64,000 nucleotides of DNA, from IMG/VR virus record IMGVR_UViG_3300037189_021371, positions 1 to 64,000 of that record; one strand, given 5' to 3'. Numbering within the stretch: the stretch's first letter is position 1; each line of letters begins with the position of its first letter. The notes beneath the pieces were generated by a model. The model saw only the letters and a list, made by a program, of their open reading frames with translations. It was not told where the DNA came from and searched no databases. This DNA comes from a virus. Below are positions 1 through 48,210 of the stretch, one piece after another. The position numbers and the translations under genes were made by a program.

Positions 1-3155
<3,155 letters not shown>

Positions 3156-3156
<1 letters not shown>

Positions 3157-3521
3157 TATTTTGTAACCTCTGGTCTAACTGTTAAGTTTCCCTGAATGAC
3201 TTTAGTGACCGTGCCCGTAGATGTCTCGGTCATCTCTAAGTCGTAGACATATTTTCCTGGAGATATAGCTGCAGTTTGCGCAGGTGATGCAATAATAAGA
3301 ACAGTTCCTGCTGTTGGGTTTACCTCAATGCCACCATTTTCTGTGGTTAAAGTTAAAATCACATCAGGGGATTCTGTTTTTAAATAACGAATCTCCATCA
3401 CTCCGGTATAGCCATTTAAAGGCACTGATTTTTTAGCAGCGTTCTTTAACCCTATTGAACGCAAGAGGGTAGCACCTTGATCGACAATAATGTCGTAAAC
3501 ATTCGTAGTTGTACAGTGCAC
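3156..3521 (-). CDS. Fibre-adaptor-like virion protein (paralogue of the 23595-23957 product)
   Basis: This 121-residue protein aligns end to end with the 120-residue product of 23595-23957. Shared pattern: 'YxIIxDQG' near residue 10, a central 'LTTENG', 'KYVYDLE' and an ending of the 'xVRxEVTx' type. The start is GTG at 3521, supported by that alignment and by AGGGAC upstream. It is probably a small beta-rich protein. Each paralogue stands directly before a fibre gene, and here the stop overlaps the collagen-like gene start (TAATG). The adaptor or attachment role is inferred from position only. Confidence 0.6.
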
Positions 3522-11084: not shown

Positions 11085-12431
11085 TTAGTTCTGGTGTACT
11101 AGATATCCACCTGCAATAAACCAGTTATATGGTTCACAGATGTACTGATATACGGTTGTAGGTTCGTAAATCTCGGTGATAGATGAGATCTCTTCTGTTA
11201 CATAAGTACCATCCGGCAGCACCTTGACCAAGTAGTCTCCAGGCTTCAGTAGTCCAGCATTTATAGTCTGGAACTGACCATCAACTAGGGCAAACATTGA
11301 CTGCTCATTTGAGTACTTAGCAGTTGTATCTTCATTGAAGTATACGATTTCTGCCTTAGTACTCTCGATAATGTCAACGATAGTAGTCTCTACTGGCTCT
11401 CCACCGCCGAGGGTTAGTGTAGGGCCAATAATAAAGTTTTCTTCAGATCGAGGCTCTGTTGAAAGCTCTTCTAGAGCTACTGATACCAAGGTATCTCCTA
11501 CCTTAAGATCCTTAGCCGCTACTGATCCCGAAGGAGTATCAACCAAAGTACTTTCCTCGATGCAGAAGCGAGGAGGGAAGAACGGGAAGAACGGGAAGAA
11601 CGGTGGGAAATAAGGGAAGAACGGTGGGAAGTAAGGGAAGAACGGTGGGAAATAAGGGAAATAAGGGAAGAACGGTGGGAAGTATGGGAAATAAGGAGGG
11701 AAATATGGGAAGTATGGGAAATAAGGAGGGAAGTACGGGAAGAATGGCGGGAAGTAAGGGAAGAACGGGAAGTAAGGGGGGAAGTAAGGAGGAGTTGTTA
11801 CAGACCCAGAATAACCAGACCAGTCTGAATTTCCATTGGCGTTTGTGGCATAAGCACGATACTGTTGGGCAGTATTAGCTTCCTGAGCTACAGCAAATTC
11901 TGCGGTACTAGTTCCTCGGTCACCAGACTTAGAGTCAGTACTTTCCCAGTGGAAGTTGGTAATTGCAGAACCACCAGTTGCAGAGATTGTAATTGTTAGG
12001 TAGTCATTTTGGTCATTACTGACCTGACGAACTGACGGAGTATTTGGGGCAGGAGGTACAGTACTTACAGAGACTGTTTGAGAAGTTGTTGGATTTGAGT
12101 TTCCAGCATTGTTCTTAGCTACTACCGTGAATGTATAGTCTGTACCAGAGGCAAGACCTTCAAATACGAATGGAGATCCAGAAGTTGGAAGTGTAGTTGT
12201 GTTTTTGGTTACAGTTGTAGGGGTAGTTGTAATATCGTAGCTTATAGCTGGAGCTGAGCCATTAGGTAGAGTCCATACTAGGTTTACTGCACCACCAGTG
12301 CCAGCATTTCCAGTAGCAGAAAACAGGTATGGTCGGTTAGTACCAACGTTAGTTGCAGTGGTGATAGTTACTGCAGCTGGCTGCAAAAAGTCATTCTGCT
12401 GTGCGGAGTGCTTACCGGTTCTTTTGCTCAT
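11085..12431 (-). CDS. FN3-like / Pro-aromatic repeat / C-terminal Hint domain protein
   Basis: 448 residues in four parts. Two fibronectin-III-like domains cover about residues 18-130 and 132-213. A low-complexity stretch of P-Y-F-P and P-F-F-P units covers about 214-288. A Hint (intein/hedgehog-type) domain covers 290-448. The Hint part starts at C290 ('CIEESTLVDTPSG'), has 'KDLKVGDTLV' and 'LKPGDYLVKV', and ends 'YLVHQN' at the stop codon, so nothing follows as a C-extein. The block-B His appears replaced by Gln ('NEQS'), so autocleavage may be altered. It stands between the fibre genes and the oxygenase array. Probably a virion or surface protein that self-processes or attaches through Cys290; the proline repeat is a candidate oxygenase substrate. 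Confidence 0.8.
   Translation of the reverse strand: MSKRTGKHSAQQNDFLQPAAVTITTATNVGTNRPYLFSATGNAGTGGAVNLVWTLPNGSAPAISYDITTTPTTVTKNTTTLPTSGSPFVFEGLASGTDYTFTVVAKNNAGNSNPTTSQTVSVSTVPPAPNTPSVRQVSNDQNDYLTITISATGGSAITNFHWESTDSKSGDRGTSTAEFAVAQEANTAQQYRAYATNANGNSDWSGYSGSVTTPPYFPPYFPFFPYFPPFFPYFPPYFPYFPYFPPYFPYFPPFFPYFPYFPPFFPYFPPFFPYFPPFFPFFPFFPPRFCIEESTLVDTPSGSVAAKDLKVGDTLVSVALEELSTEPRSEENFIIGPTLTLGGGEPVETTIVDIIESTKAEIVYFNEDTTAKYSNEQSMFALVDGQFQTINAGLLKPGDYLVKVLPDGTYVTEEISSITEIYEPTTVYQYICEPYNWFIAGGYLVHQN
11577..11792 (-). repeat. Short tandem DNA repeats coding for Pro-Tyr/Phe-Phe-Pro units
   Basis: Bases of the type GGGAARTANGG recur about every 9-15 nt and encode the aromatic-proline repeat of the FN3-Hint protein. 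Copy-number slippage here would change linker length in 3-codon or larger steps while keeping the frame. Confidence 0.8.
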
Positions 12432-33086: not shown

Positions 33087-33398
33087 GGGGATGACTGGTT
33101 TCGACTGGCATCTGACGTCTAGTGAAGCAAGCAGAGACGCCCGTACTCTTAGATCGGGCAAAAAAATAAATGCTGAATCACGTTCAACATTCGCACTAGC
33201 TGCTTAGTAGTAGCTCATGCCCCTGACAAAGCAGTAGTTCTAGCTGGGCAGTCAGGTCTTAAATAAATAGAACAACCGAAAGGTTGCAGCAGGAGACCTT
33301 AAGATCCCGCCTTTGTAGTACCGTGGCTGGTAGAGCCTAAGCTTGTAGAAGAATAGATAGAATATGTTAGGACGCGGGTTCAATTCCCGCCATCTCCA
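33087..33398 (+). ncRNA. ssrA: tmRNA (ssrA)
   Basis: The 5' GGGGATG (33087-33093) pairs with CATCTCC (33391-33397) as an acceptor stem. 'GGTTTCGAC' follows the 5' end and the T-arm 'GGGTTCAATTCCC' precedes the 3' end. The tag frame runs from a GGC resume codon at 33157 to TAG at 33205-33207, giving the tag (A)GKKINAESRSTFALAA, ending in the ALAA degron read by ClpXP. Phage-borne tmRNA could keep ribosome rescue active during infection, or replace the host tag. Confidence 0.95.
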
Positions 33399-33413
33399 CG
33401 AAAGAAGGACAAA

Positions 33414-35749: not shown

Positions 35750-37192
35750 ATGAAAATTCTAGGTATAAATGAGACTTCTCATGATGCTTCAATTACTTTA
35801 ATTGAAGATGGCAAAATTTTATTTGCTGCTCATGCTGAGCGATATTCCAAAATTAAAAATGATTGGTATACCAATCGTGATCTTATCCTTGAAGCACTTT
35901 CATATGGCACCCCCGATAGAATTGCCTATTATGAAGATCGCTGGCTTAAGAAGTGGCGTATATTTTCTAGAGGAGGTTTAGGTGGTGGAAAACCTTTTTA
36001 TACTAGTATGCCTGAGCTTAAAGGCATTCCTACATATGTTGCGTACCACCACCACTCCCACGCTGCGGCGGGGTATTACACCTCTCCATTTGATGATGCT
36101 GTAGTTATTGTTCTTGATGCTATTGGCGAATTTACTACTAGCTCTATATGGCATGGCAAAGGAGATGAGCTTAAGCAAGTTAAGCGTTGGAAGTATCCAT
36201 TTAGTTTTGGTCTTTTCTATTCGGCCTTTACTGATCTAATTGGGCTAAAACCAAATGAAGAAGAATACATCATGATGGGCATGGCTGCTTATGGTGATCC
36301 TGATCTCTATTTTGAAAAGGTCTCTAAATACTTCCCTTCTGTGTACAAGCAAACCTATAACTTTCATAAGGGTATCGATGACTGGGGCCAAGATATAACT
36401 GATAATGATAAGTTCCATATAGCGGCAGCTGTGCAGAGAGTCTATGAAGATCGCCTATGGGATTTTGTCTACATTGCTAGACAAGAATCATGGAGCGATA
36501 ATTTAGTTTTTGCTGGTGGGTGTGCTCTCAATAGCAAGGCAAATACACTGCTTCACGATATATTTCCTAATATATGGATTATGCCTAACCCTGGTGATGC
36601 TGGTTCATCTTTAGGGGCAGCAGCAGCTTTTTATGAAAAGAAACTAAACTGGAGGGGTCCATACCTTGGTACTAACATTCCTGGCGACTATCCGGTGGAT
36701 GAAATAGTAGACGCTCTTATTAAAAACAAAATAGCTCCAGTAGCGAACGGAAGAGCTGAATATGGTCCAAGAGCTCTGGGTAACCGTAGTATTCTCGCTG
36801 ATCCTCGCGATCCCGACATCAAGGATAAAGTAAATAAAATAAAGAAACGTGAGCTATTTAGACCGTTTGCTCCTGTAGTTATGGAGGAGTATGCATCTGA
36901 ATGGTTTGATATGGATTATGCATCTCCGTATATGCAATATACCCCGAAATGCTTAAAGCCAGAAGCAATCCCGTCGGTTGTGCATCATGATGGTACTTCT
37001 AGGGTTCAAACTGTTAATGCTCAGCAGCACCCCGGGCTCTACGCTGTCTTAAAAAAATTCTATGAATTGACTGGAGTTCCTGTACTTCTTAATACAAGTC
37101 TGAATATAAAGGGACAGCCAATTCTTAATGATTTGAATGATGTAGCCCTGTGGGAAGAACACTATAAAACTAAGGTAATTACTGGCAGATAG
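35750..37192 (+). CDS. NodU/CmcH-family O-carbamoyltransferase
   Basis: 480 residues, somewhat shorter than the usual 540-600. The N-terminal Kae1-like domain opens 'MKILGINETSHDASITLIED' and has the metal-site run 'HHHSHAAAGYY' (100-110) and 'LDAIGE'. The C-terminal YrdC-like half has 'GRAEYGPRALGNRSILADPR' and 'RELFRPFAPVV'. Members move a carbamoyl group from carbamoyl phosphate (via carbamoyl-AMP) to a hydroxyl on sugars or antibiotics. In some phages related enzymes act on hydroxymethylated DNA bases. Substrate here unknown. Confidence 0.9.
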   Translation: MKILGINETSHDASITLIEDGKILFAAHAERYSKIKNDWYTNRDLILEALSYGTPDRIAYYEDRWLKKWRIFSRGGLGGGKPFYTSMPELKGIPTYVAYHHHSHAAAGYYTSPFDDAVVIVLDAIGEFTTSSIWHGKGDELKQVKRWKYPFSFGLFYSAFTDLIGLKPNEEEYIMMGMAAYGDPDLYFEKVSKYFPSVYKQTYNFHKGIDDWGQDITDNDKFHIAAAVQRVYEDRLWDFVYIARQESWSDNLVFAGGCALNSKANTLLHDIFPNIWIMPNPGDAGSSLGAAAAFYEKKLNWRGPYLGTNIPGDYPVDEIVDALIKNKIAPVANGRAEYGPRALGNRSILADPRDPDIKDKVNKIKKRELFRPFAPVVMEEYASEWFDMDYASPYMQYTPKCLKPEAIPSVVHHDGTSRVQTVNAQQHPGLYAVLKKFYELTGVPVLLNTSLNIKGQPILNDLNDVALWEEHYKTKVITGR

Positions 37193-45409: not shown

Positions 45410-45686
45410 GACCTATACAACTAGCTTCAATCAGAGGCTGACCAATATCCATGATGCTGGGACGTGCCTCAAGGAGTACTGTTCGATACACAACTGGTCT
45501 GATCATCCACTAAAAAATGCTCCTCAGAAGTGGCGTGAAGATAAAGGTCTTATGGAGCGTATCTGTAAGCACGGAGTTGGGCACCCAGATCCAGATGAAA
45601 TTGGGCTTGAGTATGGGGGCCGTGGTGTTCATGGCTGTGATGGCTGCTGCGTAGAAGCGGTAGAATTAGATAATGAGCTCGAGTAA
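45402..45686 (+). CDS. Cys/His-containing hypothetical protein
   Basis: 94 residues with 'RICKHGVGHPDPDEIGL' and 'HGCDGCC', a likely zinc site. GGATATG upstream acts as ribosome site. Overlaps both neighbours by a few bases, so co-translated. Confidence 0.6.
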   Translation: MSETYTTSFNQRLTNIHDAGTCLKEYCSIHNWSDHPLKNAPQKWREDKGLMERICKHGVGHPDPDEIGLEYGGRGVHGCDGCCVEAVELDNELE

Positions 45687-45972
45687 TCAATCAAACCTAG
45701 CTGGGGTTACCAGCGGAATGTTCAAGGTATCTACCGAGAATAGCTCCTACCTAATTGACTATGACACTAAACGTGCAAAACGTAATCCTGGCAAAGATGC
45801 TGCCGAAATGCGTAAAGACCGTGAGTGGTTCCCCTTTCTAACTGTTGTAGCTGAGGTAGGCGGTCCTATGTTCATCTGGACCTCTGACATCGCTACTGAG
45901 GATAATACTTTCACCAATAGACGTACTTCTGAGGTAACTCGTATCGAATGCCTTACAGAATGCGGGATCTAG
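45673..45972 (+). CDS. Hypothetical protein
   Basis: 99 residues, beta-rich by eye ('MFKVSTENSSYLIDYDTKRA', 'WFPFLTVVAEVGGPMFIWTS'). Last plus-strand gene before a convergent junction. No family recognised. Confidence 0.6.
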   Translation: MSSSNQSNLAGVTSGMFKVSTENSSYLIDYDTKRAKRNPGKDAAEMRKDREWFPFLTVVAEVGGPMFIWTSDIATEDNTFTNRRTSEVTRIECLTECGI

Positions 45973-46054: not shown

Positions 46055-46708
46055 TTAATGCGAGGCTATCCAGCCTTCTCCAGTGCCATATTCCCAGGCG
46101 AAACCTGCCATAGCGTATCTTCCTGGTCCAGGACCAACTTTACGCACCCCGTGGAGAAATTCTTTGCCTGTATCAAAGATTAGGCAGGATCCAGCCTTTG
46201 GTTTGATTTCAATGCCTTTAAGTGGGAAATATAACTCTCCACCAGTAAAGTCATCATTTATATACATAACTACAGCGAACTTGATTCTTGAGTCATATTC
46301 AGCGTCAACGTGCTCGTCTAGACCAACACCCTCATACTGACGCTGTACCTCTTCTAGATACGCCAGATCATATAGCCCCTCGAAGAAGGGAGCTAGACGC
46401 TGATTGATTTTGTCATTAAAAGCAGTATCTGGAATCTTTATTATCTTGTCATCCCAGTAGGCGGAGTGGTTTCGTTCGATGTATGCAGCGATATCCTCTT
46501 CTGCCTCTTCACCGTAGAGCTCCACCGCCTGGGAATGCAAAACTTCATGATTTCGCTCTTTCCAACTATCTTGTGGCAATCCTTCAGCTAATGTCCTTAA
46601 ATAGAGAATATCTTCTGGCTGCAGAGCATTGTCAATTTGATAGATACCCTTGTATAGTTCAACTGCCTCTAGGGTTCCTGATTTATATGTAGCTAGCTGG
46701 TTAATCAT
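46055..46708 (-). CDS. Prolyl-4-hydroxylase-like Fe(II)/2OG oxygenase
   Basis: 217 residues with H133-x-D135, H186 and R197; core 'MYINDDFTGGELYF'. Its ATG overlaps the stop of the oxygenase-dehydrogenase fusion (ATGA), so both are made together. Ends near the SOS box. Confidence 0.87.
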   Translation of the reverse strand: MINQLATYKSGTLEAVELYKGIYQIDNALQPEDILYLRTLAEGLPQDSWKERNHEVLHSQAVELYGEEAEEDIAAYIERNHSAYWDDKIIKIPDTAFNDKINQRLAPFFEGLYDLAYLEEVQRQYEGVGLDEHVDAEYDSRIKFAVVMYINDDFTGGELYFPLKGIEIKPKAGSCLIFDTGKEFLHGVRKVGPGPGRYAMAGFAWEYGTGEGWIASH

Positions 46709-47910
46709 ATTGTTGCCTGGTTGAGTACATCATTAACTATGTAAGATGCAGTTTCCTTAGGTCCGGCTCCTCTAAAGATATACAGATCGGGACTATTGTG
46801 TTCAGAAAAGTTCTTGTCTGTTAGGTCTATGCCCTTATATTTCTCTAAAGTGGCGCTCGCCGGAATCGAATTAAAAGTGATAGTTGATCCTGATGCTTTG
46901 GCTAGCTCTACCAGCTCTTGCCAGTTTTCTTCAACCAACCCTTTGCTGCAGGTATGTAGATTTATCTTTCTTTTTAGCAAGTTAGTTATTAGATCTTTAG
47001 ATTGAGGTGTGTATTCAGAGCAGTCAATGACTGTATTGTAGATATCTGTCTCTTGGAGGGAGGCTAAATCATTAGTAATAATTACCCCGTTATGCTGGAC
47101 GCCCCTATCAATATCTGAATTAAGAACCTGAATGCGGGAGACTATAAATTTACTTTCATAGTCTGGGTGATTAGTTAGCTGTCTATAGACTTCCCTACCA
47201 ACTAGTCCAAAGCCGATTAAAGCAATGTTTGTTGTTGGTCTGAATCTGTCGATACTGGGTGCCTCTTTGCCTGAGGTTATCAATCCGATGCTGCTGTACC
47301 AAAAGTATGGGCTGTGCCACTTTTCCCCTTTTGTAACCTTCATAGATTCGTGGGGAGTGGTTGCTGGGAATGCAACTATAGAGCCTGCCTGTGGCTTTAT
47401 TTTGAGTCCTATATTCGGAAAATTTATTTCTCCGCCTTCATAATCATCATTTAGATATATAACTAGGCTGTGGGTTGTAGCTGGCTCCCCGTGATTGGTG
47501 TCTTCATGAACACCTAGATTCTCTCCAGTGGCATATACCCTAAGATCAACGTTCTTGCTGACAGTATTTGGTAGAGGTATCCCTACTTTTTCAGCATAAT
47601 CATTGGAGCATTTTATAATGGGGTTGACTATCGGGTCGATTACTTTTTCAGAAGCTAATTCTCTAGCTGACTTATCTGATACTTGTAGACTCTCGTTCCA
47701 CCTAAATACCTTGTTACGCCCTTTGACGTTTACAGCTCGCCATACCCCGTCTGGTTGGGTATAGCCCTCTTTCCACTCGGTAAATTTAGGTAAAACTTGA
47801 TAGACGCCCCTATCACTATCAAGCTCTTCAATATCGGCTATGAGAGCATAGGGGTTGGTTATGGCATTACGGTATTCGATAATGTCATGACCGTGGTCAA
47901 TAATCTCCAT
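46705..47910 (-). CDS. Fusion: P4H-like 2OG oxygenase plus homoserine-dehydrogenase-like NAD(P) domain
   Basis: 401 residues. Residues 1-210 form an oxygenase with H135-x-D137, H187 and K197, core 'IYLNDDYEGGEINF'. From about 224 a Rossmann domain begins 'NIALIGFGLVGREVYRQL' (GxGxxG at 233-238). 'HTCSKGLVEENWQELVELAK' and 'FRGAGPKETASYIVNDVL' parallel the substrate and C-terminal regions of homoserine dehydrogenase. The catalytic Lys/Asp of that enzyme cannot be assigned with certainty. The fusion suggests sequential oxidation of one substrate, perhaps an amino-acid-like molecule. I know of no such fusion. Confidence 0.8.
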   Translation of the reverse strand: MEIIDHGHDIIEYRNAITNPYALIADIEELDSDRGVYQVLPKFTEWKEGYTQPDGVWRAVNVKGRNKVFRWNESLQVSDKSARELASEKVIDPIVNPIIKCSNDYAEKVGIPLPNTVSKNVDLRVYATGENLGVHEDTNHGEPATTHSLVIYLNDDYEGGEINFPNIGLKIKPQAGSIVAFPATTPHESMKVTKGEKWHSPYFWYSSIGLITSGKEAPSIDRFRPTTNIALIGFGLVGREVYRQLTNHPDYESKFIVSRIQVLNSDIDRGVQHNGVIITNDLASLQETDIYNTVIDCSEYTPQSKDLITNLLKRKINLHTCSKGLVEENWQELVELAKASGSTITFNSIPASATLEKYKGIDLTDKNFSEHNSPDLYIFRGAGPKETASYIVNDVLNQATI

Positions 47911-47913
47911 TTA

Positions 47914-48210
47914 TTAGGCACTTTGAAGTAGTGCAGCTAGCTGAGCGTAGCTAGAGTTTCCATTTTCGATAGCAGTCTTAATATCTGCATACTGCTTTGC
48001 TGCTAGGTCGTGTAGGTCTAGGTCATCGCCATCATAGACTGGGTGCCAGTCGCGACCGTCATATACAGCTGGAGATCCTTCGTGAGGAATCAATAGATAA
48101 CCAAAAGTAGTGATGCCATCCATATCCAAGAATGGGTCCAGTAGGATCCCCTCTGGATCAGCCATTACGCGAACTCCACGTAGCTTGCCTGCTTCTGAGC
48201 GAATTTTCAT
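47914..48210 (-). CDS. Hypothetical protein
   Basis: 98 residues, acidic, with 'LLIPHEGSPAVYDGRDWHPV' in the middle. Strong AAGGAG ribosome site. First gene of the three-gene minus operon with the fusion oxygenase. Unknown. Confidence 0.6.
   Translation of the reverse strand: MKIRSEAGKLRGVRVMADPEGILLDPFLDMDGITTFGYLLIPHEGSPAVYDGRDWHPVYDGDDLDLHDLAAKQYADIKTAIENGNSSYAQLAALLQSA

Follow-up and report, generated by a model that had tools for sequence, protein, structure and literature searches.

The partner domains of procollagen lysyl hydroxylase LH3, in which a P4H-type 2OG domain is covalently joined to another enzyme domain, are glycosyltransferases (as also stated in the PDB title). A fusion of a 2OG oxygenase with half of a homoserine dehydrogenase (HSD) was not described in the literature that we searched. 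In the HSD of P. horikoshii, the nicotinamide amide is held by Gly296 and Thr300, whereas the substrate is bound by Asp206 and, at its hydroxyl, contacted by Lys116 and Lys215 (PMC4495429). Phages of the kind considered here carry more than ten 2OG oxygenases, and a fused copy gives a chemical hint, namely a redox step linked to hydroxylation.

In this study, we describe such a fused copy in a window of 64,000 nucleotides (the whole stretch of DNA that was analysed) from a 64,024-bp virus contig. The original prediction had proposed a P4H-like oxygenase and an HSD-like Rossmann domain in one 401-residue protein, coupled to a second oxygenase. Both proposals were borne out: the profiles PF13640 and PF03447 each match within the single 401-aa ORF, and the stop of the fusion gene and the ATG of the second gene overlap as ATGA. 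The fusion is real and lineage-specific. It is a new combination of known families, one of them unusually trimmed, and the only known example. The features of the locus are given below; L234 and L235 are syntenic relatives.

47914..48210, minus strand: upstream neighbour, 98 aa, conserved; its ortholog adjoins the stand-alone oxygenase in L235
46705..47910, minus strand: fusion gene, 2OG-Fe(II) oxygenase plus HSD-derived putative NAD(P)-binding half; 401 aa, intact ORF, ATG start
47242..47910, minus strand: P4H/PKHD-like 2OG-Fe(II) oxygenase domain, aa 1-223, with HED135-137, H187 and K197; its extent equals the stand-alone orthologs of L234 and L235
46858..47229, minus strand: HSD-type Rossmann domain, aa 228-351, with GFGLVG and the TCSK lysine K323
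46780..46857, minus strand: 26-aa stretch, aa 352-377, replacing about 170 residues of the HSD substrate/dimerisation domain; low model confidence
46714..46779, minus strand: HSD return segment RGAGPKETASYIVNDVLNQA, aa 378-399; G383 and T387 are the counterparts of the nicotinamide-amide contacts of P. horikoshii HSD
46055..46708, minus strand: second 2OG-Fe(II) oxygenase (P0002), 217 aa, overlapping the fusion gene by 4 nt (ATGA), in the window-specific cassette
46055..47243, no strand: window-specific cassette (dehydrogenase domain plus second oxygenase); homology to relatives ends and resumes at its edges
45673..45972, plus strand: downstream neighbour, 99 aa, conserved; 90% identical in L235 and 73% in L234

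The source is proposed to be a tailed phage with actinobacterial features. Because the best cellular matches of its NrdF are actinobacterial, including freshwater Microbacteriaceae-type genomes (Aquiluna, Rhodoluna; 80-82%), an actinobacterial and probably freshwater host is suggested. Elsewhere the window holds a tmRNA gene (33087-33399, plus strand; tag AESRSTFALAA), six tRNAs, a NodU-type carbamoyltransferase (35750-37192, plus strand) and a phage-encoded subtilase (PF00082; 42740-43915, plus strand) whose N-terminus reads like a signal peptide. The translation of a further gene (11085-12431, minus strand), read by eye, shows a long repeat of the PYFPPFFPYFPP type and, after it, a Hint/intein-like segment. 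A long collagen-like open frame (GXY, with many GAT and GPT; 1-3150, minus strand) reaches the contig start and adjoins a cluster of P4H-like 2OG oxygenases between 3.6 and 11 kb, a possible substrate-enzyme neighbourhood.

Concerning the N-terminal half, a Pfam profile search placed PF13640 (2OG-FeII_Oxy_3) at aa 123-199 with an E-value of 6e-12, the score of 46.7 bits passing the curated cutoff of 27. The iron triad H135-x-D137 and H187 and the 2OG-binding basic residue K197 are present, as read directly and in alignment with orthologs, and the H187-to-K197 spacing of 10 residues is like that of P4Hs. Searching the PDB with six related phage oxygenases combined into a profile gave, as the first matches, the P4H of B. 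anthracis (E 2e-9) and hydroxylases of the PKHD type. The contig contains 14 places resembling the fusion protein, itself counted, and all of them resemble its oxygenase half. The stand-alone oxygenases of L234 (63% identity, 226 aa) and L235 (59%, 231 aa) retain the active-site residues without the dehydrogenase module and terminate exactly where the dehydrogenase domain starts in the window.

In the C-terminal half, NAD_binding_3 (PF03447, the HSD NAD-binding family) matches aa 233-346 with an E-value of 1e-8 in the whole protein and of 2e-9 in a domain search of this half alone, the check that the original prediction had named; the scores (36.4 and 38.7 bits) pass the cutoff of 24. The NCBIfam HSD model NF004976 is matched with an E-value of 5e-12, covering profile positions 5-130 of 430 only, and its best score of 45.8 bits compares with a family-level cutoff for HSD of 205, which is not reached. 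Our own HSD model, for which we took 24 HSDs, mainly cellular but including two from viral contigs, aligns in two collinear pieces, positions 5-131 with aa 228-351 and positions 300-321 with aa 378-399, at a joint E-value of 5.9e-11 among 5389 ORFs. The C-terminal block RGAGPKETASYIVNDVLN (aa 381-389) scores 9.6 bits against the GAGxxxTAS block of HSDs, compared with at most 6.1 bits in 5000 shuffles; taken alone this score is suggestive, and it appears stronger as the second of two collinear pieces. Near-invariant HSD columns are retained at G233, G235, V237, G238, T320, K323, G381-A382-G383 and T387, among others, and the final G of GAG and the T are as far apart (383 to 387) as their counterparts in P. 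horikoshii HSD (296 to 300). Other cofactor-loop residues are altered: the GG pair is replaced by EY at 299-300, the Asn preceding the lysine by S322 and the Arg after strand 2 by L263. Identity to HSDs is 20-33%. Since cofactor-contacting residues are retained, NAD(P) binding by the C-half is plausible from its sequence.

The earlier reading of HSD-like C-terminal blocks holds for the cofactor half; the substrate/dimerisation domain is absent. In the alignment to the 24-HSD model, positions 132-299, which comprise this domain with the homoserine site, have no counterpart in the C-half, and the homoserine-site residues E199, D205, D210 and K214 (L120 numbering) are deleted. The C-half was considered as a homoserine dehydrogenase and rejected, the defining substrate domain having been tested for and found absent. 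Being without the HSD substrate half (Asp, Glu, second Lys), it is therefore not an ordinary dehydrogenase, and a substrate site would have to come from the oxygenase domain or from a partner.

The fold of the C-half was predicted with an alignment of three viral-contig HSDs. The model (mean pLDDT 73, pTM 0.76) has a Rossmann core mostly at pLDDT 75-90, a linker below 50 and a terminal helix, segment 352-377 being of low confidence. Foldseek placed HSDs on top (E 2.5e-9), and in VIA-align HSD chains were best with Z 20.7 over 160 residues including the terminal helix; the first non-HSD dehydrogenase families followed at Z about 15. The possibility that the C-terminal fold is unrelated to dehydrogenases, raised at the outset, is thus set aside. 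As the prediction alignment contained HSDs, the fold is support and not independent proof. A single-sequence prediction of the whole protein reached pLDDT 38, too low for a usable model.

A search of metagenomes for the fusion had also been proposed. In IMG/VR, searches with the full-length protein, with its C-half, with an HSD-guided alignment and with the DNA pattern F..GAG...TA found neither the fusion nor the C-half a second time; three matches to this DNA pattern were unrelated. Neither in the 50,697 phage records nor in the genome contigs searched was a relative of the C-half found. The 50 RNR-related viral contigs yielded no match to the C-half sequence or to PF03447, a profile that all 14 control genomes did match; nor did PF03447 occur in four further records, one of which (G008) is already among the 50. 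Pattern-based scans detect close relatives only and near-identical records may be missing from the collections, so that the absence of a second copy is weak evidence. Matches to the C-half in actinobacterial genomes lie nearly all in frames of at least 430 aa, typical of complete HSDs; one short frame of 167 aa (G739) stands at a contig start. Because the actinobacterial matches are such long frames and only 24-33% identical, a recent host source is not indicated.

Orthologous neighbours occur on both sides of the locus in one or both relatives, among them the 98-aa gene, a SpdSyn-like gene, a resolvase and the 99-aa gene. DNA homology to the relatives ends at about 47243 and resumes at about 46050, which delimits a cassette of about 1.2 kb; between these points the relatives carry other genes, including one for an NlpC/P60 protein. 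The two cassette edges share no exact repeats of 9 or more bases. Most simply, this comparison suggests that the fusion is the derived state and arrived as one cassette. PADLOC gave no defence match beyond its generic 2OG model and a weak QatA match (E 0.016) of the second oxygenase. Near the same locus, L235 encodes an ADP-ribosyltransferase-domain protein of 481 aa (1927-3372, minus strand; PF03496, E 3e-24).

The reading that we prefer, at about even odds, is that of a lineage-specific 2OG oxygenase that captured, by cassette exchange, an NAD(P)-binding module; this module would act in cis and is not an HSD. The exchange would have given the 3' end of a P4H-like oxygenase gene an HSD-family NAD(P)-binding half together with a downstream second oxygenase gene, and the two genes are probably co-translated. 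The N-half would hydroxylate a substrate, possibly a protein side chain, because many sister oxygenases adjoin a collagen-like ORF. The C-half would bind NAD(P)(H) and act in cis on or for the fused oxygenase, as a cofactor-dependent module that may be regulatory or may oxidise the hydroxylated product held by the oxygenase side.

A possible but less probable reading is a non-catalytic module: the Rossmann half would take up NAD(P) or a similar nucleotide and serve the oxygenase solely through regulation, dimerisation or targeting. Cofactor-binding elements are kept and the catalytic half is gone, and the stand-alone oxygenases of the relatives keep their active-site residues without any such module; yet the elements for the reactive nicotinamide end, Lys323 and GAGxxxT, are kept too. 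These same nicotinamide-side elements, which matter for hydride transfer, favour a tandem of hydroxylase and dehydrogenase; the HSD residue equivalent to Lys323 touches the hydroxyl of the substrate. A CH2 would be hydroxylated and the alcohol oxidised to a carbonyl with NAD(P)+, the substrate being presented by the oxygenase domain or by the second oxygenase. The joint acquisition of the dehydrogenase domain and another oxygenase is in line with this tandem. It is nonetheless rather unlikely: the loss of the HSD substrate domain, which carries Asp206, Lys215 and the dimer interface, leaves the C-half without its own pocket for a substrate, and we found no other cases of such a half working alone. 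We also regard as unlikely a one-chain bifunctional enzyme whose HSD half borrows the oxygenase domain as its substrate site and converts CH2 to C=O with NAD(P)+, possibly on a phage protein.

An inert passenger, that is, a leftover piece of an HSD gene, joined on by recombination and without function, would agree with the single occurrence, the low identity to HSDs (20-33%), the deleted substrate half and the low-confidence linker. We consider it doubtful: the 183-aa reading frame is intact, and both discontiguous cofactor segments and the GAGxxxT spacing survive divergence to about 25-30% identity, which is unlikely in a decaying fragment. An assembly artefact, which the original prediction had named as a possible undoing and to which the single metagenomic contig and the missing second copy point, is very improbable, because the cassette sits in conserved flanks: on both sides the gene order shared by this phage group continues, which a chimera would not be expected to reproduce. 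Moreover, the reading frame is kept across the junction, which coincides with a domain boundary, the G+C of the segment (0.40) is close to that of the contig (0.43), and the second oxygenase of the cassette is of phage type.

The fusion to a trimmed NAD(P)-binding half also offers a test case. If the C-half works without a substrate domain, the cofactor half of a dehydrogenase would be reusable as a plug-in module.

Compared with known systems, an 'Oxoglutarate/iron-dependent dioxygenase' from an uncultured Caudovirales phage (A0A6J5NCI1, BFVD; 398 aa) is of similar length and gives a partial structural match to the C-half model (E 5e-3 over 132 columns), but with only 7% identity and a TM of 0.41; as a putative parallel fusion it is a lead only. 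In a related phage, a 480-aa protein (L101:2099-3541, minus strand) likewise joins a 2OG oxygenase of the same group to a second domain (PF13640 1.9e-9; weak Sulfotransfer_2 match, E 0.005), although both the partner domain and the oxygenase are others. LH3 (8ZGC, 6FXK) shares the covalent joining of its P4H-type domain and a weak profile match, but its partner is not an NAD(P) domain and it has no close relation to the fusion. With P4H/PKHD-like phage oxygenases (PF13640, phrog_61; B. anthracis P4H 3ITQ, PiuC 9GHL) the N-half shares HxD...H...K and the 10-residue H-K spacing; the phage orthologs end at 226 and 231 aa, whereas here a dehydrogenase-derived domain continues. HSDs such as S. aureus 4PG4 and mycobacterial 6DZS are the best fold matches of the C-half and share with it GxGxVG, the TxxK lysine and the GAGxxxTAS return segment. 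In contrast to them, the fusion is without the substrate/dimerisation domain (about 170 model positions) and the C-terminal extension, is about 25% identical, and has its HSD part placed behind an oxygenase.
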